In this document: in pieces, positions 10,170-21,899 of the stretch
Numbering within the stretch: the first letter of the stretch is position 1
How the letters are laid out: every line of letters starts with the position of its first letter
Virus record (IMG/VR): IMGVR_UViG_3300023180_000444
Location: 1 to 22,288 of that record
Length of the DNA stretch: 22,288 bases
Reading direction: 5' to 3' (one strand)
Origin: a virus
The notes under the pieces: generated by a model
Databases searched by the model: none
Told to the model about the DNA's origin: nothing
Seen by the model: the letters and a program-made list of their open reading frames with translations, nothing else
Position numbers and translations under genes: made by a program

Positions 10170-10796
10170 TTAAGATTTTAGACCTTGAATTATTTTCTTC
10201 AAGCTCTCTGCTATATATCGTTGTGCCTGTGCGTCGCCTTTTACTTCTTGTGCAACTTTATATGCCTGAAATCCACCATTTGTATTCATTAGGTGTTCAT
10301 AAACTGGTGTAGGATAAGCTCCCGGAGCACTTGGTTGGGCTACAATGTCCACTGTAACAATTTCAAATCCTTGAACGTTACCGCTCGGGTCTACCTCTCC
10401 TGAACCTCTACTGCTTACACCTAATTTAACTCCTGATGTCAACATAGTTTCAATCAGTTGTCCCATAGGTGTAGGCAACATTTTAAGTTTTCCGTAGCCG
10501 TTAGGACCGTCCATCCACATTTTAGTAATCATGTGTGATACACGGTCGAGGTTTATTTTTAAATCTTGAGGATGATCAACTTCGCCTAGCACTGAATACC
10601 CCCCAGAAATCTGTTCGTTGAGCGTCTTGACAGCCCTATCAATTTCCTTAGAAGAATAAACACGTTGGTTAGCATTACGAATGTCACCCTGAATACAGAT
10701 GCCACTCAAGTGTAATGACTTACCTTCGCCTTCATCACGCTCAAGTACGATTTTAGCCTGATCGAAGCTCAGATGTTCTGTTAAGCTAGTTTTCAA
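10170..10796 (-). CDS. gp21: Prohead core protease gp21
   Basis: The protein has 208 residues and is the serine protease that processes scaffold and capsid after prohead assembly. GEVDHP contains the presumed catalytic His75. GVSSRG contains the presumed catalytic Ser (128 or 129). Both are hallmark motifs of the T4 gp21 family, which shares the herpesvirus assemblin-type fold. NQRVYSSKEI near residue 44 is also typical. The start is a TTG at 10796. No ATG or GTG lies between the upstream in-frame TAG (10809-10811) and residue 79. AGGGG 9 bases before the TTG is the likely SD. It sits between gp67-like and gp22, as in T4. Confidence 0.93.
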   Translation of the reverse strand: MKTSLTEHLSFDQAKIVLERDEGEGKSLHLSGICIQGDIRNANQRVYSSKEIDRAVKTLNEQISGGYSVLGEVDHPQDLKINLDRVSHMITKMWMDGPNGYGKLKMLPTPMGQLIETMLTSGVKLGVSSRGSGEVDPSGNVQGFEIVTVDIVAQPSAPGAYPTPVYEHLMNTNGGFQAYKVAQEVKGDAQAQRYIAESLKKIIQGLKS

Positions 10797-10811: not shown

Positions 10812-11690
10812 TTATCTACGACCACGGAAAATTGAATCGGTGTTGCCAGCGCCGCTTTCTTTGTTTGCTGCACCACTTTCTTTGCTCATTTTAGTAGCGT
10901 TTTTAGAACCTGGTGTGTTTACATTACCAAAGTCATCAACTTTAGGTGCTTTTGCGCCAGTTCCACCTTTCTCTTCGCCTTTGCTTCCGAGAATGTTTGC
11001 TGCTGTACCACCCATATCATTTTTACCTGCTACTGGTGATTTTGTGTCAGCGCCTGATTCTGTGCTTTTTACACCCGCTACTTTTTCAACGTACTCACGC
11101 ATTGTTGCAAGTTCGTCTACTTCTGGAGCAATTTCGTCAGCAACTGGCTCTAAAGATTCTTCTTCAGCTTCTTCATCGCCTGCTTCGCCTTCGTCGCCTT
11201 CGTCTCCACCTTTAATTTCATCAAATTTAGCTTGTAGTTCGTCAACAATAGAGTCTAGATCTTGGAATAACTCTTCTGGCTCTTTGTCGCCTTCTTCGTC
11301 ATCACCTGTGATATCAGCTTCTAGATCGTCTGTTGCGTCTCCGCCCATATCCATGTCGTCAGCTGGATCTTCTTCGTCATCAGCTTCTACAGCTACTTCT
11401 TCAAATTCTTCGTCAACTTTGTCTTCGTCATCATCTTCTGATGCTTCGTCAACTTTGTCTTCTTCTGCATCGTCGTCTTTTGATGCTTCATCAACTTCTT
11501 TGTCTTCAGCATCTTCGTCTTTTGCAGCTTCGTCTACTTCCTCATCGTCAGTCATTTCTTCCTGGATAAGGTTTTCATAAATTTCTCTTGATTTTCCTAC
11601 AACGTACTCATGAAAAAGCTCTTCGGCTTTTGCTTGATCGTCGTTAACTAGATGCTCAAGCATCTGTTCTAATTGTGATTTATCTGCCAT
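10812..11690 (-). CDS. gp67: Acidic prohead core protein, gp67-like
   Basis: The protein has 292 residues. The N-terminal 45 residues (LVNDDQAKAEELFHEYVVGK, then a helix to about residue 46) resemble the N-terminus of T4 gp67, a small acidic prohead core protein. From residue 47 to about 200 the protein is dominated by Asp and Glu, with three VDEA-containing repeats of 12-14 residues at 52-91. The last 90 residues are Gly/Ala/Lys/Ser-rich and end FRGRR. It is much longer than T4 gp67 (about 80 residues). AGGAGA precedes the ATG. Its place directly before gp21 fits gp67/gp68. It probably fills or organises the prohead core; the extension's role is unknown. Confidence 0.75.
   Translation of the reverse strand: MADKSQLEQMLEHLVNDDQAKAEELFHEYVVGKSREIYENLIQEEMTDDEEVDEAAKDEDAEDKEVDEASKDDDAEEDKVDEASEDDDEDKVDEEFEEVAVEADDEEDPADDMDMGGDATDDLEADITGDDEEGDKEPEELFQDLDSIVDELQAKFDEIKGGDEGDEGEAGDEEAEEESLEPVADEIAPEVDELATMREYVEKVAGVKSTESGADTKSPVAGKNDMGGTAANILGSKGEEKGGTGAKAPKVDDFGNVNTPGSKNATKMSKESGAANKESGAGNTDSIFRGRR
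11418..11537 (-). repeat. Acidic VDEA repeats in gp67-like protein
   Basis: Three consecutive units begin VDEAAKDEDAEDKE, VDEASKDDDAEEDK and VDEASEDDDEDK, with a degenerate fourth (VDEEFEEV) following. The repeat is also visible as recurring TTCGTCAACTTTGTC-type stretches on the plus strand, so it may expand and contract by slippage or recombination. Confidence 0.75.
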
Positions 11691-14360: not shown

Positions 14361-16982
14361 TTAAACAACAAATGCGTCTTGACTTAATCCGCCAGTTACA
14401 TTAATATGTTGCTGTTGTAGTTTATTATTCATTCTTGCCAAAGCTACTAATTCTTGTATGCTACTATTTAATTCTAGAATAGGATCTTTCTCTACATTTG
14501 TGGCTGCTGCCATTTGGGCTTCTTCTGTCATTGGAACACCAGTTGCCAATTCTTCTTCAGTTTTGGCAGCGTCTGGAAGCGTATTGGACGCAGTGGTTAT
14601 ATTACCTTGGCTGTAACCTCCTCCGCCGTTAACTTCTGCTACTTTGGTTTGGAAATCCTGTACTTCTTGTTCTGTTACTGTTCCGTCAGCAATCATTTGC
14701 TGAGAAGCCTGTTGTCTAGCAGCCATGAGCTGTTGTTGTATTTGGGCTAGTTCTTGTTTTTCATCTTCTGCTGACCAACCAACCGAAGAAAAACTATTAT
14801 CTGCAATTGCCTGTTGTAGTTTCTCTGCTTTGGCTTCTAGATCTCTAATAGTATCAGGACCTGAAAGTTTTTCTCCAATTACTTCACCTACAGCATCACC
14901 AGCTTTTGAGCCGGCCCACCAACCAATTGCACCACCTATGAGACCGCCAATCGCTGTTCCAACAATTGGAACAGCAGAACCAATTGCGGCTCCTGCCATT
15001 GCGCCAGTTGCCATACCGGTTAATCCGCCGGTAGTGCTTGTTACTGCTTTTGTTTTTTCGACAGTAGCTTGATTTTGAGTTATTTCACCCGATGCTAGTT
15101 TTTCATCAGCATCACTGTATCTCGAATATCCGTCATATAAAGACATACCTACTGCTACTGGTGCTGCTGCTTTTCCGGCAACTCTTAATAGTTTTCCACC
15201 CCAAGATGATAGTTTGCCCATCATTCCAGGCTTTGCGCCTGATGGTGTCTTTTGGTTGGTCCAAGCACCGTTGCCGCCTGGTCCTCCTCTATTCGAACCT
15301 GTAAATGCGCCTAGGCCGCTTTTTGCCAAAGTTAAGGCAGTCATTAAAGCGCCTAGTGCTGTAGTTACTCCACCTATAGCAGCTATAGCTAGTCCCATTT
15401 CAGTAGCATATTCGCCTGCCTTTTGCTGCATAGGAAGTGAAAACTCTTTTGCAGCCTTCATTACTAGATCAAATGCATCATTGACTGGAGTAATATCAAT
15501 CTTATTCAACTCAGATGTCATAAATGCAGCAGCTTCGTTGAATTTGTTTCTTACTGCTTCTACTGTCGCTGCATCTACAAATTCAGTGCCAGCGGTGCCT
15601 GCGGCGATATTATCTTTGATTGTTTTAAGATTAGTTTCAAGCTCGGAGTAGATTTGACCAATTGATTTTTCTCGTTCAGCAACATCATAAACACCTGTAA
15701 CCAAATCATTAAATTCAGGAACAAACTTACCTAGTGTTTTAAATAGTGGACTGTCTGCAACTGCTTTGGCTTCGTTTTGATATACTTCATTAAACTTAAA
15801 CACTTGATCTTTGGTAAGTGTTCCTGTTGCTGACATCTGTTGATGCAACTGTTGAGCACTCATTCCTGATTTCTGTAGGAAAGCCATAGCCTTCATACCT
15901 TCTTCAGAAGTTGCAGTACCTGTTGCTAGAATTTCTTTAAGACCTTGTTGGTGCTGTTTTGGAATGGTCTGCATCAACAGTTCTAGCTGTTTCTGACCAT
16001 CAGCATCTAGGCTTCTCAACATCGTACGATATTGAGCATCTGCCATTCTTGCGTCTTGTTCTGCTTGAAGTGCTTCTTTGGTTTTACCTGTTAACTTAGA
16101 TACAGCATCTAAGTTCTTTAAGTATTCGTATGTGCCTGCACGTAGTTGTGCATCTGTTTGTCCTTGTAGTCTACCACCTTTAGCAAGTAGTTGTGAGTAT
16201 TTTAAGAAACCTTCGTTGATCTGCTGTGTTCCATAACCTAATCTGTTTAGATCCTCAAACGCAGAAGTCTTTCTAAATTCTTTACCAAATTCCTGTAATC
16301 GTTTAGCACCAGCATCTGTGCTGCCGCCCAAGAACATTAATGCTTCGCCGTTGCCCTTCATTATTCCTGTGAGCTCACTCATTTGTAAGCCCATAGATCC
16401 AGCAGCCTGGACAACTCCATTCATGTTGCCGCCGAAGTTAGCACCAACTTGTGCAGCTTCTTGGAATGCTGTTCTTGTTTTATCTAATGAAGCAAGTGTA
16501 GGACCAAATGCCGCAGCAACTACTTGTAGTCCTTTTCCAATACCAGGGATTTGCGCTCCGACTGTATCTAGTGCAGTTCCGGCACCGGCTAGCGAACCAT
16601 CTAAACCTGCTAAGGTGCTGTTAACAGTAGAAATACGTTTAACAACATTGATAGCACCGTCGGCTAGACCACCTAATACGCCAATGGTCTTTGTAATAGC
16701 GCCTGCAAAACCGCCATTCAAATTCTTGGCAGTTTTACTAGCTGCGGAACCTAAATTAGCTACATCTGCACCAGATCTTTTGGTTGTTTTACCAAATTGT
16801 TGATTTGATTTAGTAGCAGCAATTGAAGCAGCGCCTAGACCGGTCACTGCTGCCGCAGTAGCTGGATCTATACCGCCTTGTTTCGCTGATAAAGCCGATA
16901 AAATCTTTTGCAGCGTAATTTCAGTCGCGGCATTATTAAGCAGAATCTCTTGATCGCCCAGTTGTCCTGTTACTTCAGCCAT
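14361..16982 (-). CDS. Tape-measure-like tail protein
   Basis: The protein has 873 residues. The N-terminal 180 residues are Ala/Gly/Thr-rich, followed by long charged helices. There are two hydrophobic stretches, about residues 525-560 (MGLAIAAIGGVTTALGALM) and about 650-700 (Gly-zipper-like, with AIGSAVPIVGTAIGGLIG and WWAG). The C-terminus is Gln-rich and helical. This is the usual make-up of tape-measure proteins, which set tail length and later interact with the host membrane. In T4 that role belongs to gp29; this could be its functional counterpart, but no gp29 signature was recognised. The SD is weak (GGGA). A late promoter lies 62 bases upstream and gp20 follows directly. Confidence 0.65.
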   Translation of the reverse strand: MAEVTGQLGDQEILLNNAATEITLQKILSALSAKQGGIDPATAAAVTGLGAASIAATKSNQQFGKTTKRSGADVANLGSAASKTAKNLNGGFAGAITKTIGVLGGLADGAINVVKRISTVNSTLAGLDGSLAGAGTALDTVGAQIPGIGKGLQVVAAAFGPTLASLDKTRTAFQEAAQVGANFGGNMNGVVQAAGSMGLQMSELTGIMKGNGEALMFLGGSTDAGAKRLQEFGKEFRKTSAFEDLNRLGYGTQQINEGFLKYSQLLAKGGRLQGQTDAQLRAGTYEYLKNLDAVSKLTGKTKEALQAEQDARMADAQYRTMLRSLDADGQKQLELLMQTIPKQHQQGLKEILATGTATSEEGMKAMAFLQKSGMSAQQLHQQMSATGTLTKDQVFKFNEVYQNEAKAVADSPLFKTLGKFVPEFNDLVTGVYDVAEREKSIGQIYSELETNLKTIKDNIAAGTAGTEFVDAATVEAVRNKFNEAAAFMTSELNKIDITPVNDAFDLVMKAAKEFSLPMQQKAGEYATEMGLAIAAIGGVTTALGALMTALTLAKSGLGAFTGSNRGGPGGNGAWTNQKTPSGAKPGMMGKLSSWGGKLLRVAGKAAAPVAVGMSLYDGYSRYSDADEKLASGEITQNQATVEKTKAVTSTTGGLTGMATGAMAGAAIGSAVPIVGTAIGGLIGGAIGWWAGSKAGDAVGEVIGEKLSGPDTIRDLEAKAEKLQQAIADNSFSSVGWSAEDEKQELAQIQQQLMAARQQASQQMIADGTVTEQEVQDFQTKVAEVNGGGGYSQGNITTASNTLPDAAKTEEELATGVPMTEEAQMAAATNVEKDPILELNSSIQELVALARMNNKLQQQHINVTGGLSQDAFVV

Positions 16983-17061: not shown

Positions 17062-17967
17062 ATGGAAGAAAATTTGGAACTACCAAAGGTTGAAATAGCT
17101 GGAAACACACAGCCTATGGCAAATACTCAGCCTAAAGCTAGTCCGCTTTCCAATTATTATAGACAGCCTAAGATTTATGTTTCATTGCCTAGCAACGGTG
17201 AATTCTATCCAGAAGGTAGTCTTGATAAAAGTGAAGATGGAAAATATGCTGTGTATTCAATGACAGCAAAAGACGAATTAATGCTAAAGACGCCAGACGC
17301 ATTAATGAATGGACAATCAACTGTTGATGTTATTCAAAGTTGTATTCCTGCAATTAAAAATGCATGGAATTTACCATCACTCGATCTTGATGCTTGTCTT
17401 GTTGCTATTAGAGTAGCAACATATGGCGAAAAGATGGATATTGATACTAATTGTCCAAAATGTAACGAAGAACTACGTTTTGAAAAAGATCTAGCAGACT
17501 GGTTAGGAACAGTAGCCAACTATCGCTATCCAACAGTTATTCAACACGGTGAATTGGTTTTTCATATTGAACCACTGAGTTACAGACAAGTAACAAAAGC
17601 GGGACTAATGAAAATAGAACAAGAAAAGATCTGGAATATTGTAAACAGTACAGAACTTACTGATGAAGAAAAGTTAGATCAATTCGGAGTATCGTTTACA
17701 AAGTTAACAAAATTTACAGTAGATGGTATTGTAAAATTGGTTAGAAAAATTGATACACCACATGGATCTGAAGAGAATAGAGATGAAATTGAAAAATTTA
17801 TTACTCAAGGTCCAAAAGAAATGTTTGATGCACTTAATGAAAAATTAACTTCGGTGAAAGATGATCTTGCACTGACGTTAAAAGGCGCAAAGTGTTCAAA
17901 TTGTGAAAACGTATTTGACGTTGGTATCACAATGGATCAAGCGGATTTTTTCGTCGCAAGATCTTAA
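17062..17967 (+). CDS. gp26: Baseplate hub / tail assembly protein gp26-like
   Basis: The protein has 301 residues. The central part resembles gp26-type baseplate proteins of T4-like marine phages: YVSLPSNGEFYPEG, TAKDELMLKTPDALMNGQS, VDVIQSCIPAIKNAW and IRVATYGEKMDIDTNCPKC. Two Cys pairs, C131-x2-C134 and C278-x2-C281, could form a zinc ribbon. GGAG lies 7 bases before the ATG. It is the only plus-strand transcription unit here, divergent from the tape-measure gene. In T4, gp26 acts in assembly of the baseplate hub. Near its end a T_TTT_TTC heptamer (17946-17952) and a downstream inverted repeat could shift ribosomes into the -1 frame, giving a fusion with the next ORF. Confidence 0.85.
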   Translation: MEENLELPKVEIAGNTQPMANTQPKASPLSNYYRQPKIYVSLPSNGEFYPEGSLDKSEDGKYAVYSMTAKDELMLKTPDALMNGQSTVDVIQSCIPAIKNAWNLPSLDLDACLVAIRVATYGEKMDIDTNCPKCNEELRFEKDLADWLGTVANYRYPTVIQHGELVFHIEPLSYRQVTKAGLMKIEQEKIWNIVNSTELTDEEKLDQFGVSFTKLTKFTVDGIVKLVRKIDTPHGSEENRDEIEKFITQGPKEMFDALNEKLTSVKDDLALTLKGAKCSNCENVFDVGITMDQADFFVARS

Positions 17968-17991
17968 CCAAACCTTTGCCGGAGATCTTGC
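17946..17991 (+). promoter_or_regulatory. Candidate programmed -1 ribosomal frameshift signal
   Basis: The slippery heptamer T_TTT_TTC (17946-17952) is in the correct phase with gp26 codons F296 and F297. A perfect 9-bp stem, GCAAGATCT (17956-17964) with AGATCTTGC (17983-17991), begins 3 bases later with an 18-base loop. TTGCC in the loop (17976-17980) can pair with GGCAA at 18017-18021, which would give an H-type pseudoknot. After slippage the -1 frame is open from 17952 to 18176, adding 75 residues to give a fusion of about 372 residues. Confidence 0.6.
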
Positions 17992-18179
17992 AAGAAGTCA
18001 AGAAGATAGACAAACAGGCAAGGGACATGAAAAAAGACCTACTTCGTATCTGTTGGTACATGAGAGGTATGTCTTATACTGATGCTGTGATGTTGGGTCA
18101 CGAAGAACGTGAACTTATCGGTGAGTTAATTAAAGATAATCTTGAAACAACTAAAAGAACCGGGCTGCCTTTCTTCTAG
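17976..18179 (+). CDS. Small helical protein after gp26, probably made as a -1 frameshift extension
   Basis: The ORF has 67 codons from a TTG. Its frame is open upstream to 17919, overlapping the gp26 end in exactly the -1 frame. The TTG has no SD and falls in the loop of a hairpin. An internal ATG at 18027 with AAGGG only 2 bases away would give 50 residues. The conserved-looking part is LLRICWYMRGMSYTDAVML, then a helix ending TGLPFF, similar to short ORFs after gp26 in related phages as I remember them; it occupies the position of T4 gene 51. It could be expressed as a gp26 fusion by frameshifting, or independently from TTG or ATG. Its TAG shares CTAG with the stop of the convergent gene. 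Confidence 0.7.
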   Translation: MPEILQEVKKIDKQARDMKKDLLRICWYMRGMSYTDAVMLGHEERELIGELIKDNLETTKRTGLPFF

Positions 18180-18184
18180 GCAGC
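18164..18184. other. Hairpin over two convergent stop codons
   Basis: GCTGCC (18164-18169) and GGCAGC (18179-18184) form a 6-bp stem around a 9-base loop. The loop edge holds CTAG (18176-18179), which supplies the TAG stop on both strands. There is no clean T-run after either arm, so terminator function is uncertain. Confidence 0.4.
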
Positions 18185-20935
18185 TAACAATTTCTTAGCA
18201 CTTTCAATTCCTTCAGGTCCTAGTTTTTTAATTTGATCAGCAATCTTTTGTAAATCTACAGCGCCAACAGCAGCACCTGCGGCAGCGGTTGCTGCATTCG
18301 ATCCACCTTGCTGTGCATTATCTGGTGCGCCTACTGGATTACCTGTTGCGGCTATATTTTTTTCTGCTGATTGATCTGGGCTTCCTGATCGTGTACTAGG
18401 AACAGGTTTGCCGTCAGGTGTAGTCATGTTTGCTACCTGAGCAGGGAAATTACCACCTGGTCCATCTGGATCAACTTCTACATATTTGTCAGCATCGTAT
18501 TTTCCAATACTGCCTGATGTAGTTGTTGCAGGAATTTCTTTTCCTTTTCGTGTTTTAACAACAACTTTAGTTCCTGGTTTAACTGCTGGGTTTGGATTTC
18601 CTTCTGCACCTGCTGTTGCTTTTTCAGGATCAGCAACATTGTCATCTTGATTAGCTGCTGCATCTGTTCCGGTTGCTGTGTTATCCTGTGCAGGTTCATC
18701 TGCACCTGGTACTGCGGCATCGCCGCCTGCATCACCTGCGGTAGCATCTGTTGGAGCACCTGCTGTGGTATCTGTTTTTTCAGCATCTGAGTCAGCGTCA
18801 GCATCTGGTGCGTCTACTTTAGGTGGTTCAATTTTCATTGAGTCGTATGTGCCTTTGATAACATCGTCATTAACACCTAGACTTTTAATTACATCATAAA
18901 CTTCATCTGAATCTGTAGGCGATCCTGCTTTTTTCCAAGCAGACAATAGTTTTTCTGCTGTTACTTTATTTGTAAGTTGCTTGCCTGCACCTTTCAACGC
19001 ACCGCCTACTGCTGCTGCACCTTTGGCTACTCCTCTGCCTAAACCCTGTAATGCACCTTTAACTCCGCCTGTGAGTTCGTCTAGTTGTTGATGTCTTACA
19101 GCATCAAATACACTTTCATACATTAATTTGTTTTCAAGCATATGATCATTTACTGTTGCAATCTTGTTGAACAACAAGTAGACCTGTCCTTCAGAAAGTT
19201 TACGTCCTGTGTAAACACGGCTTGCCATTTGAGGTTCACCTGCTTTTGCAGGTGCTTCTCCAGCACCAACGACCTTTTTATCTTGCATTGCTGCACTCAT
19301 TGCAACTGCTGTTGCTGCTGCACCGATTGATTTAGCAAGGTCCTGTTTGAATGTATCAACTACTACACTAATGCCCGCTTTGGAATCAGCAGACACTCCA
19401 GTGTATTCATTCATAAACTGAAATAATTTTTCAGTGTCTTCGTCTGATAAGTTTGCTTTATCGATGGCATCCCATACTGGATGAGTTGGTTGAGTAGTGA
19501 CTTCTTGTACTGCAAATACTGGATCACCATTAGCATCAACACCTTCAACTGTAACTGAACTTGTAAACGAAATTGGCGGTTCAATGCCTCCTACGCTTGT
19601 GCTAACTGTTGATTTAAATTGATCGCCTACTTTTATTTCTGCACCATCTGGTAGTGTTGTTGTTCCTAGTTCAGGAGCGTCACCTGTCCAGGCCGAAGCA
19701 CTTGAAGTATTTGCTGAAATGTTTTGCCCCATAAATTGTGCATCAGCCATTCCTTTTTCCATCTGGAACATCTTTTGCAACTGGTCAGAATCAATACCTT
19801 TTGATTCTGCCCACTCTTTTACTTCTGGGGAAATATCTGGTTCTGTGTCAAAGTTAATTCCTGCTTTTTTAAGTTGATCTGCACTTACAGGTTCTGCTTT
19901 AACCGTTTCAACCGTTGAAGCATCTGTAGCACCACCGTCGGGCGTGCCTGCATCTTGATCACCGTAATCACCATCATCGCCTGGTAATTCTGTTTTGTCA
20001 ACTCCAACGTCAGTTGTAGTTGTTGTGTCTCTTGCTAGATCCGAACCTTCAAGGCCAGCGTGATCTGCTAGTGCATCTCTACCGCCTAGATCATTAATTT
20101 TTGCACTTATTTCTTCAAATTCTGCTTGGAATACTTCTAGTTCTTCACCTGAAACATTTTTAAGTGCTGTTTCTAGTGCATTCTGTGTTTTAAGTAGATC
20201 TTCTGCTGCTTCAGGTGCAAGGTTTTCAATGCTCGTGGCTTTCATTCCTTCCAACGCACCTACATCAATTGACTGTCCGTCACTGGCAATAAGTGTTTGT
20301 GCAACATCTGGATCAACTAGATCACCAATCAGTTCAATACCACCACCAGCAAGAGCACCAACTGCACCTGTTGTTGCTGACTTACCAATTGCTGTAGAAA
20401 GGTCCTTGCCTTGTAGAATATCTTTTGTAGCACGACCAAGGAAACCACCTACTAAACCGCCTAGTGGTCCTGCTGCTAGTGCGGCCGCTGCTGTTAGAAT
20501 TGCAACCGCAACACTTGCTTTGCCTGGATTTGCTTTTGCCCAGTCGCTGACTACTTTTACGGCACTTACTACTTTTGAATCCTTTTCGCCAATTTTTGCT
20601 TTTAATTCTTTAAACTTGGCATCCATATTTTGAACTGGACCTGCACTCTTAATTGCAGCACCTAGTTTGTCAATTTCTGCTTTAATTGCACCTGCTGTAT
20701 TCTTAACAGCATCTGTGCCTTTACCTATTGCTGTTCTATTTCCGCCTGCGGCAGTTGCACCTTGTTCAACACTAGTAAATACCTGTTTGATTTGATCTGG
20801 AGATAGCATTGCTTCTAGAACAATACGTTCAACGTTGCTTACAAAAGGATCAATTACCTTTTGTTCTAGCAATAGCATATCAGGATCATTCCATCCTTCT
20901 GTAATATATCTTTTTTGTATCTGTGATAATCTCAT
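18176..20935 (-). CDS. Large modular virion-associated-like protein, unknown function
   Basis: The protein has 919 residues. The N-terminus (about 1-70) is helical and includes LSPDQIKQVFTSVEQGAT. A hydrophobic Ala/Gly-rich stretch at about 140-165 could insert in a membrane. An acidic Asp/Gly/Thr-rich linker follows at about 300-350. A module near residue 577 (RKLSEGQVYLLFNKI) precedes a Gly/Lys/Ala amphipathic stretch, then AWKKAGSPTDSDEVYDVIKS (about 663). The C-terminus has a long Asp/Ala/Thr linker, APDNAQQGG and a short helix. Its ATG is one base after the upstream stop (TAACATG). I recall similar modules in T4-like marine phage proteins of unknown role. An internal or ejected virion protein is one possibility. 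Confidence 0.6.
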   Translation of the reverse strand: MRLSQIQKRYITEGWNDPDMLLLEQKVIDPFVSNVERIVLEAMLSPDQIKQVFTSVEQGATAAGGNRTAIGKGTDAVKNTAGAIKAEIDKLGAAIKSAGPVQNMDAKFKELKAKIGEKDSKVVSAVKVVSDWAKANPGKASVAVAILTAAAALAAGPLGGLVGGFLGRATKDILQGKDLSTAIGKSATTGAVGALAGGGIELIGDLVDPDVAQTLIASDGQSIDVGALEGMKATSIENLAPEAAEDLLKTQNALETALKNVSGEELEVFQAEFEEISAKINDLGGRDALADHAGLEGSDLARDTTTTTDVGVDKTELPGDDGDYGDQDAGTPDGGATDASTVETVKAEPVSADQLKKAGINFDTEPDISPEVKEWAESKGIDSDQLQKMFQMEKGMADAQFMGQNISANTSSASAWTGDAPELGTTTLPDGAEIKVGDQFKSTVSTSVGGIEPPISFTSSVTVEGVDANGDPVFAVQEVTTQPTHPVWDAIDKANLSDEDTEKLFQFMNEYTGVSADSKAGISVVVDTFKQDLAKSIGAAATAVAMSAAMQDKKVVGAGEAPAKAGEPQMASRVYTGRKLSEGQVYLLFNKIATVNDHMLENKLMYESVFDAVRHQQLDELTGGVKGALQGLGRGVAKGAAAVGGALKGAGKQLTNKVTAEKLLSAWKKAGSPTDSDEVYDVIKSLGVNDDVIKGTYDSMKIEPPKVDAPDADADSDAEKTDTTAGAPTDATAGDAGGDAAVPGADEPAQDNTATGTDAAANQDDNVADPEKATAGAEGNPNPAVKPGTKVVVKTRKGKEIPATTTSGSIGKYDADKYVEVDPDGPGGNFPAQVANMTTPDGKPVPSTRSGSPDQSAEKNIAATGNPVGAPDNAQQGGSNAATAAAGAAVGAVDLQKIADQIKKLGPEGIESAKKLLAA
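18301..18328 (-). repeat. 28-base direct repeat, copy 1 (encodes APDNAQQGG)
   Basis: It is identical base for base to 21077-21104 and lies near the 3' end of the 919-residue gene. Both copies encode the same peptide in the same frame, about 40-50 residues before the protein's end. Confidence 0.85.
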
Positions 20936-20936
20936 G

Positions 20937-21872
20937 TTATAGCATCTTCAATAGTTGTTGTTTGTCTCTACCTGGCAGTGCTTCAAGTTGTTTTCTAAGT
21001 TCTGGTGGTAATGCTGCACCTGGTTCAGCAAATGCTCTACCTACTGCTGAGCCTGCTGCCTGAGCTGCACCTTTGAATCCACCTTGCTGTGCATTATCTG
21101 GTGCAACACCTGTGCCGTCATCAGTGCCACCACCTTCATCACGTTCAATGCCCTGTTGAACTGCTGCCATAAAAATTCTATCTAGTTGTCCGCCGGACAG
21201 TACTGCGTTGGCATCTTCAAAAATCCAAGTTGCTTCACTCCAATCAATTGATTGATTTACCACTTGTTTGTTTGCTGGTTGTGCTACTTTTTTATTTTTA
21301 GCACCTTTGATAGCAATGTTTGAATTATCTGTTGCAGTATTCTGCGCATCAGGTTGAGGTTTTTGCTGTGCTTGTGCATTACCTTGCGCATTTGGATCTG
21401 CTGCGGGTTGCTGTTGTGCTTTTGCCGCTGCTACACCTGCTTGAGCTCCTGCTACAGCACCTTTTGCAACATTGCTAACACCTTTTGCCACAGCACCTAC
21501 GCCCTTAGCAACACCTTTGCCAACTGCGGCAACGCCTTTTGCCGCGCCAGCGGCTGCGGTTCCGACCGCGGCGCCCATTTTTTGACCGGTAGTAACCTTG
21601 GTCATTTCTTGTTCTGCTGCGCCTGTGGGATATCTTTCTTGTTTTAGGAAATTTATAACTACTTGTGGAGTAGGCTCTTTGCCAATTTTACCGAGATATG
21701 TGTCAAACTTCTTCTTAAGCCAGTTGGCTTCTGCACCAGCATCAAGTTTTCCCTGTGCTTTTCTACCTGTAGCACCCGGAACAAATGTTTTCATCTTAGT
21801 TCCTAGACGTGATAGCATTCCTGAAGGTGCTTCGTCTAGATTATGATTTGAAGATATCTCATTAAAACGCAT
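20937..21872 (-). CDS. Ala/Gly/Lys-rich virion-associated-like protein
   Basis: The protein has 311 residues. I choose the ATG at 21872 (AGGA 6 bases upstream) over the TTG two codons earlier. The N-terminal domain includes WLKKKFDTYLGKIGKEPTPQ and a VINFLKQERYP segment, a small helical module. Residues about 97-145 are a repetitive Ala/Gly/Val/Lys stretch (GVAKGVGAVAKGVSNVAKG), cationic and amphipathic. A Gln/Asn/Ala-rich linker follows, then WSEATWIFEDANAVLSGGQL. The C-terminus has APDNAQQGG, an Ala-rich segment and a helix ending QLLKML. The last part parallels the end of the 919-residue neighbour. The two genes are cotranscribed from the late promoter at 21900-21906. Function is unknown; a packaged, DNA- or membrane-interacting protein would fit. 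Confidence 0.65.
   Translation of the reverse strand: MRFNEISSNHNLDEAPSGMLSRLGTKMKTFVPGATGRKAQGKLDAGAEANWLKKKFDTYLGKIGKEPTPQVVINFLKQERYPTGAAEQEMTKVTTGQKMGAAVGTAAAGAAKGVAAVGKGVAKGVGAVAKGVSNVAKGAVAGAQAGVAAAKAQQQPAADPNAQGNAQAQQKPQPDAQNTATDNSNIAIKGAKNKKVAQPANKQVVNQSIDWSEATWIFEDANAVLSGGQLDRIFMAAVQQGIERDEGGGTDDGTGVAPDNAQQGGFKGAAQAAGSAVGRAFAEPGAALPPELRKQLEALPGRDKQQLLKML
21077..21104 (-). repeat. 28-base direct repeat, copy 2 (encodes APDNAQQGG)
   Basis: It is identical to 18301-18328 and lies near the 3' end of the 311-residue gene. The flanking sequence diverges immediately on both sides. Confidence 0.85.
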
Positions 21873-21899
21873 TTTCAATCCTATTAATTTTTATAATGT

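Follow-up and report, generated by a model that had tools for sequence, protein, structure and literature searches.

The stretch of DNA analysed here (the window) is the 22,288-base IMG/VR virus record IMGVR_UViG_3300023180_000444, which carries T4-like head genes (portal gp20 and major capsid gp23) and a gp26-like gene whose 3' end overlaps a small open reading frame (ORF) in the -1 frame. Judging from the sequences of this junction and of its relatives, it is very probably a site of -1 programmed ribosomal frameshifting, which would give a short form of 301 and a long form of 372 amino acids (aa). The gene clearly belongs to the gp26 family: its product scores 46.9 bits against the Pfam family PF12322 (T4_baseplate, gathering cut-off 24.5) and matches phrog_150 (baseplate hub) in PHROGs with an E-value of 8e-16. 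Its AlphaFold2 model (predicted local distance difference test, pLDDT, 87) matches T4-like baseplate hub (gp26-type) proteins of many phages in a Foldseek search of BFVD, with E-values down to 7e-22. The junction is made up of the following elements, where TAC stands for tail assembly chaperone:

17062..17967, plus strand: gp26-like gene, 301 aa, 0-frame product and putative short form (TAC-N), from PF12322, phrog_150 and Foldseek
17946..17952, plus strand: slippery heptamer T_TTT_TTC in the gp26 phase, from the sequence and kept in relatives
17965..17967, plus strand: gp26 stop codon TAA, inside the hairpin loop, from the sequence
17952..18179, plus strand: -1 frame extension, 75 aa plus stop, putative C-terminal domain of the long form (TAC-NC), from the open -1 frame, selection and a structural model

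The 3' end of gp26 reads gcg gaT TTT TTC gtc gca aga tct TAA, which places the heptamer in phase with the gene as the original prediction had it. Its second element, a following ORF in the -1 frame that is open through the slip site, was recovered by translation (FFRRKILTKPLPEILQ...), with the frame being open from 46 nucleotides (nt) upstream of the gp26 stop. After a -1 slip the codons CGT CGC AAG ATC ... would be read as RRKILTKPLPEILQ..., terminating at 18177-18179, and the predicted fusion would consist of gp26(1-297) and 75 further residues, 372 aa in total compared to 301 aa for gp26 alone. Candidate start codons of the small ORF in the window are TTG 17976, TTG 17988 and then ATG 18027. 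A TTG does exist upstream of the ATG as had been claimed, but it is not the only one, as TTG 17988 also precedes ATG 18027. TTG 17988 falls within the 3' arm of the stem and is preceded at 3 nt by a GGAG, which is too near for a good Shine-Dalgarno sequence (SD), and neither TTG is conserved across all relatives.

We compiled 201 distinct gp26 junctions from metagenomic relatives, jumbo phages (such as RaK2, 121Q, PA5oct and Atu_ph07) and cyanophages. All of them show an in-phase heptamer (TTTTTTC in 197, TTTTTTT in 4) followed by a -1 extension of 60-80 codons that is open through the T-run (201/201). The set includes 70 loci picked solely by gp26 N-terminal peptides (70 of 70 with both features) and 58 cyanophages (58 of 58). 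As these junctions are related to each other, 201 is not a count of independent events, and a better measure is how invariant the slip site is at synonymous positions when set against the variable codons in the rest of these genes. Here, the codons NNT TTT TTC are found in 88 of 88 distinct gp26 genes with zero synonymous variation, whereas TTC accounts for only 327 of their 1087 Phe codons (30%) and at other conserved Phe positions the two codons TTT and TTC are mixed at 9-22%. A chance origin of the slip site was considered and rejected, given 88/88 NNT TTT TTC and an in-phase T-run with the -1 phase in 201/201. The original prediction had pointed to two kinds of relatives that would speak against it. 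Junctions with another phase or lacking a slippery site amount to 0 of the 201, and an ATG near the gp26 stop occurs in only a few relatives (Phosso, Atu_ph07, 121Q, BF and the loci L015, L034 and L111), each of which retains the heptamer.

TTTTTTT takes the place of TTTTTTC in RAS14, XacN1, Melnitz-3 and C48C1 (L117, L120, L122, L123), and in Melnitz-3 and C48C1 the gp26 stop directly follows the heptamer.

Downstream of the heptamer we identified the following RNA elements:

17953..17955, plus strand: spacer of 3 nt, in effect 6 nt if pairs 1-3, which are weakly conserved, are melted, from per-pair counts
17956..17964, plus strand: stem 1, 5' arm (GCAAGATCT), from covariation and tree
17983..17991, plus strand: stem 1, 3' arm (AGATCTTGC), from covariation and tree
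17973..17980, plus strand: pseudoknot stem 2, 5' arm, in the hairpin loop, from covariation and tree
18017..18024, plus strand: pseudoknot stem 2, 3' arm, from covariation and tree

The perfect 9-bp stem 1 described by the original prediction is indeed present at 17956-17964/17983-17991, starting 3 nt past the heptamer and enclosing the gp26 stop codon. As an isolated hairpin it has a folding energy of -15.3 kcal/mol (z = -5.4) and none of 200 shuffles was equally stable. The pseudoknot pairing proposed for 17976-17980 and 18017-18021 turned out to be the core of an 8-bp helix (17973-17980/18017-18024, including one G-U pair) that forms an H-type pseudoknot with stem 1. Covariation was analyzed in 45 distinct gap-free relatives with 500 shuffles. 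Stem 1 is paired in 91% and stem 2 in 76% of cells, with 36 and 39 double-change cells, respectively, and the covariation score of either stem was reached by 0 of the 500 shuffles and peaks at the true register. On a tree derived from gp26 minus its C-terminal end, with slid registers as controls, 11 compensatory double changes were counted for stem 1 (slid controls 0-2) and 15 for stem 2 (slid controls 1-9). The support for stem 2 is weaker than that for stem 1, with pairing at 76% and a register slid by -1 yielding 9 compensatory events. The nested fold of 78 nt shows a moderate stability (z -1.98) because the pseudoknot is disallowed in it.

The spacer had been noted as unusually short, since 5-9 nt are usual, even if other lengths are on record (PMC5009743). 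The distance to the first pair is 3 nt as stated, but the oddity is smaller than feared: in the per-pair counts conservation is lowest at pairs 1-3 of stem 1, with pairs 4-9 being nearly fixed, and thus the core stem begins 6 nt past the heptamer. Phosso, PA5oct and XacN1 likewise have stems of 10-11 bp that are separated from the heptamer by 6 nt, and a 10-bp stem occupies nearly the same position in Atu_ph07. A second class of junctions (L024-L034 and L005) possesses a single long stem instead of hairpin and pseudoknot, which reaches up to 15 bp (L028) and pairs the bases just past the heptamer with a segment near where the pseudoknot 3' arm would lie; in Atu_ph07 (L005) a further 11-bp hairpin lies within the loop of this long stem.

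It could be argued that the small ORF is a separate gene translated by coupled re-initiation at TTG 17976, TTG 17988 or ATG 18027 after termination of gp26, as there are two TTGs near the gp26 stop in the window, ATGA or TAATG overlaps in the distant relatives Phosso, Atu_ph07, 121Q and BF, and several distant relatives in which the extension is annotated as a gene of its own. We consider this very improbable. In 42 of the 201 junctions there is no ATG, GTG or TTG at all between the point where the -1 frame opens and 60 nt beyond the gp26 stop, and RaK2 and PA5oct also lack a start codon close to the junction. In 12 close relatives of this start-less kind the first start codon follows only 74-95 nt past the gp26 stop, and over the 19 codons after the stop the ratio of nonsynonymous to synonymous change (pN/pS) is 0.51 in the -1 frame compared to 1.05 and 1.25 in the other frames. 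The simplest reading of purifying selection on the -1 frame ahead of any start is that ribosomes enter this frame upstream, by slipping, and that the extension is not an independent gene. The heptamer in phase at every junction, the covarying structure in close relatives and the poor conservation of the TTGs point in the same direction. Slippage of RNA polymerase as a rule depends on longer runs and requires no phase. Transcriptional slippage at the T6 run, adding a base to some of the mRNAs, would also use a homopolymer as signal and would result in the same fusion, but we regard it as so improbable as to be nearly negligible: the run has only 6 T, ends with C in 197 of 201 junctions and is fixed in codon phase, and the conserved structure lies downstream of it and is therefore absent while the polymerase transcribes the run.

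Frameshifting by the ribosome, as suggested by the in-phase heptamer, the selection on the -1 frame and the covarying stems, would proceed as follows. Most ribosomes would end at the gp26 stop and release the 301-aa short form, while a fraction would pause at the hairpin/pseudoknot just past the heptamer, where the two tandem tRNA-Phe in the P and A sites could slip from TTT-TTC to TTT-TTT. Translation would resume in the -1 frame, adding 75 aa to gp26(1-297) to give the 372-aa long form; both the slippage itself and the ratio of short to long form are inferred here. In analogy to phage lambda, where the short gpG coats the tape measure and the rarer, C-terminally extended gpGT recruits tube subunits (PMC5009743), abundant short forms might coat the tape-measure protein and a few long forms might recruit tube subunits via their extra domain, with both departing before the virion is completed.

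Such a pair of PF12322 proteins is most likely a tail assembly chaperone working like lambda gpG/gpGT. This function, already suggested in the original prediction, is supported by T4 gp26 and gp51, both members of PF12322 and both listed as hub assembly chaperones (PMC3004832). It also fits with the neighbouring gene:

14361..16982, minus strand: tape-measure-like gene, 873 aa, adjacent to gp26 and divergently transcribed, from phrog_794 (E 3e-17) and phrog_167 (E 9e-6)

Both of these families are annotated as tail length tape measure, so the tape-measure-like gene expected beside gp26 is present and its product is the presumed client of the chaperone. If the frameshift is real, its product could instead be a structural component of the hub, to which we assign a small chance. 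By tradition gp26 is regarded as a subunit of the baseplate hub, and some genetic studies assign it to this structure, yet the same source names both gp26 and gp51 among the hub assembly chaperones (PMC3004832). In addition, Vladimirov et al. 2022 assigned T4-like genes as TACs, according to papers citing them, and the short/long architecture beside a tape-measure-like gene also speaks for a chaperone.

Several observations weigh against a lambda-like frameshifting chaperone. The tape-measure-like gene adjoins gp26 as expected of the G/GT type, yet it lies on the opposite strand, whereas both are co-directional in lambda. A simple stem search with a shuffle test gave no significant stem in RaK2, BF, S-RIM12, RAS14, SCTP-2 and C48C1, and we thus do not claim a stimulatory stem for every relative. 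For the window gp26, searches of the PDB gave no match by fold and nothing credible by sequence, and a direct link to lambda gpG is therefore not established; in Pfam it matches no TAC family besides PF12322. The window extension is modelled as a helical domain (pLDDT 87), has no family in PHROGs or Pfam and gave no credible match in sequence or fold to the C-terminus of T4 gp51 or to any solved structure (PDB, Foldseek, hhalign), with hhalign aligning window-type extensions to the wrong part of gp51 and only weakly to cyanophage extensions. Compared to lambda gpG/gpGT the likeness lies in a short form with a scarce C-terminally extended one and in the tape-measure protein, the client in lambda, while no sequence relationship was detected and the window differs in its T_TTT_TTC, its covarying hairpin/pseudoknot and its divergent tape-measure gene.

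In T4 the arrangement is different. Both T4 gp26 and T4 gp51 belong to PF12322, as the window gp26 does, and each is a full-length member; gp51 has about 48 extra C-terminal residues, resembling a pre-fused long form. Two separate genes stand in for the frameshift, in contrast to the single gene with a -1 extension in the window. The cyanophage -1 extension aligns to the extra residues of gp51 in hhalign (E 8e-4) with a probability of only 24%, which is suggestive only, and BLASTP of this extension against the end of T4 gp51 gave no match. As the same gene family appears to frameshift in all distant T4 relatives examined, the two-gene arrangement of T4 looks like a later replacement. We lean towards a scenario in which frameshifting of gp26 at T_TTT_TTC is ancestral to the T4-like supergroup (jumbo phages, cyanophages and pelagi-type phages), with the covarying hairpin-pseudoknot driving it in the lineage of the window, and in which T4 and its relatives lost it by duplication of gp26 and in-frame fusion of the extension, resulting in gp51. 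Long-tailed phages as a rule obtain their two chaperone forms by frameshifting, and T4 has so far been cited as the exception, with G-T frameshifting described as widely conserved 'except T4' (Atkins et al. 2016, PMC5009743). If the scenario is true, the one classical exception to TAC frameshifting disappears.

The claim in the original prediction that no such frameshift had been reported for T4-like phages was too strong. According to citing papers, Vladimirov, Gautam and Davidson (2022, Virology 566:9-15) had identified which proteins of T4-like phages are the TACs. The PRFect paper (PMC10885494) refers to this work for T4-like phages that have a short gene plus a distinct gene for the fused long form, and PMC12846349 refers to it for poly-T slip signals in the TAC-N genes of T4-like phages. 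From these citations it is probable that frameshifting was already recognized in some T4-like phages. A related case is phage Adele (Vandenendeviridae/Andersonviridae), whose TAC shows a -1 slip at the poly-T motif GTTTTT close to where TAC-N ends and whose extension had likewise been mis-annotated as a hypothetical gene (PMC12846349); it differs in belonging to other phage families, and a pseudoknot is mentioned 0 times in that paper. In our incomplete coverage of the literature we found no report for the RaK2/121Q/PA5oct/Atu_ph07 group and none that describes a TAC site with a covarying pseudoknot. Thus, the principle is known, while its conservation in the jumbo relatives and the covarying pseudoknot appear to be new, and the junction provides a bacterial frameshift pseudoknot that covaries in nature and comes in many sequence variants.

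The analysis also corrects the annotation of the -1 extension, which is currently listed as a separate hypothetical gene or as 'gp51' and has been missed completely in RaK2 and PA5oct. In these two phages the predicted -1-frame peptides SQLLQLEATEIEK (RaK2) and ILVSGTPDDIR (PA5oct) lie N-terminal to any possible start, and with such unique peptides in cultured phages the fusion can be tested directly. About 500 phage records, mostly of cyanophages, contain a small gene named 'baseplate hub assembly catalyst' (gp51). In the cases examined it is a truncated piece of the gp26 -1 extension, with the T-run heptamer and the -1 phase present (for example L118, 3115-3252).

In the window the -1 extension is followed by an ORF on the minus strand (18176-20935) that converges on it and overlaps its end by 4 bases. 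This ORF and the adjacent one at 20937-21878, also on the minus strand, have no Pfam match and share a C-terminal alanine-rich segment (PDNAQQGG...), which looks like a duplicated tail domain. A repetitive and very acidic protein (VDEASKDDDAEEDK...) is encoded at 10812-11690 on the minus strand, between the ORF 10170-10796 and the portal region.
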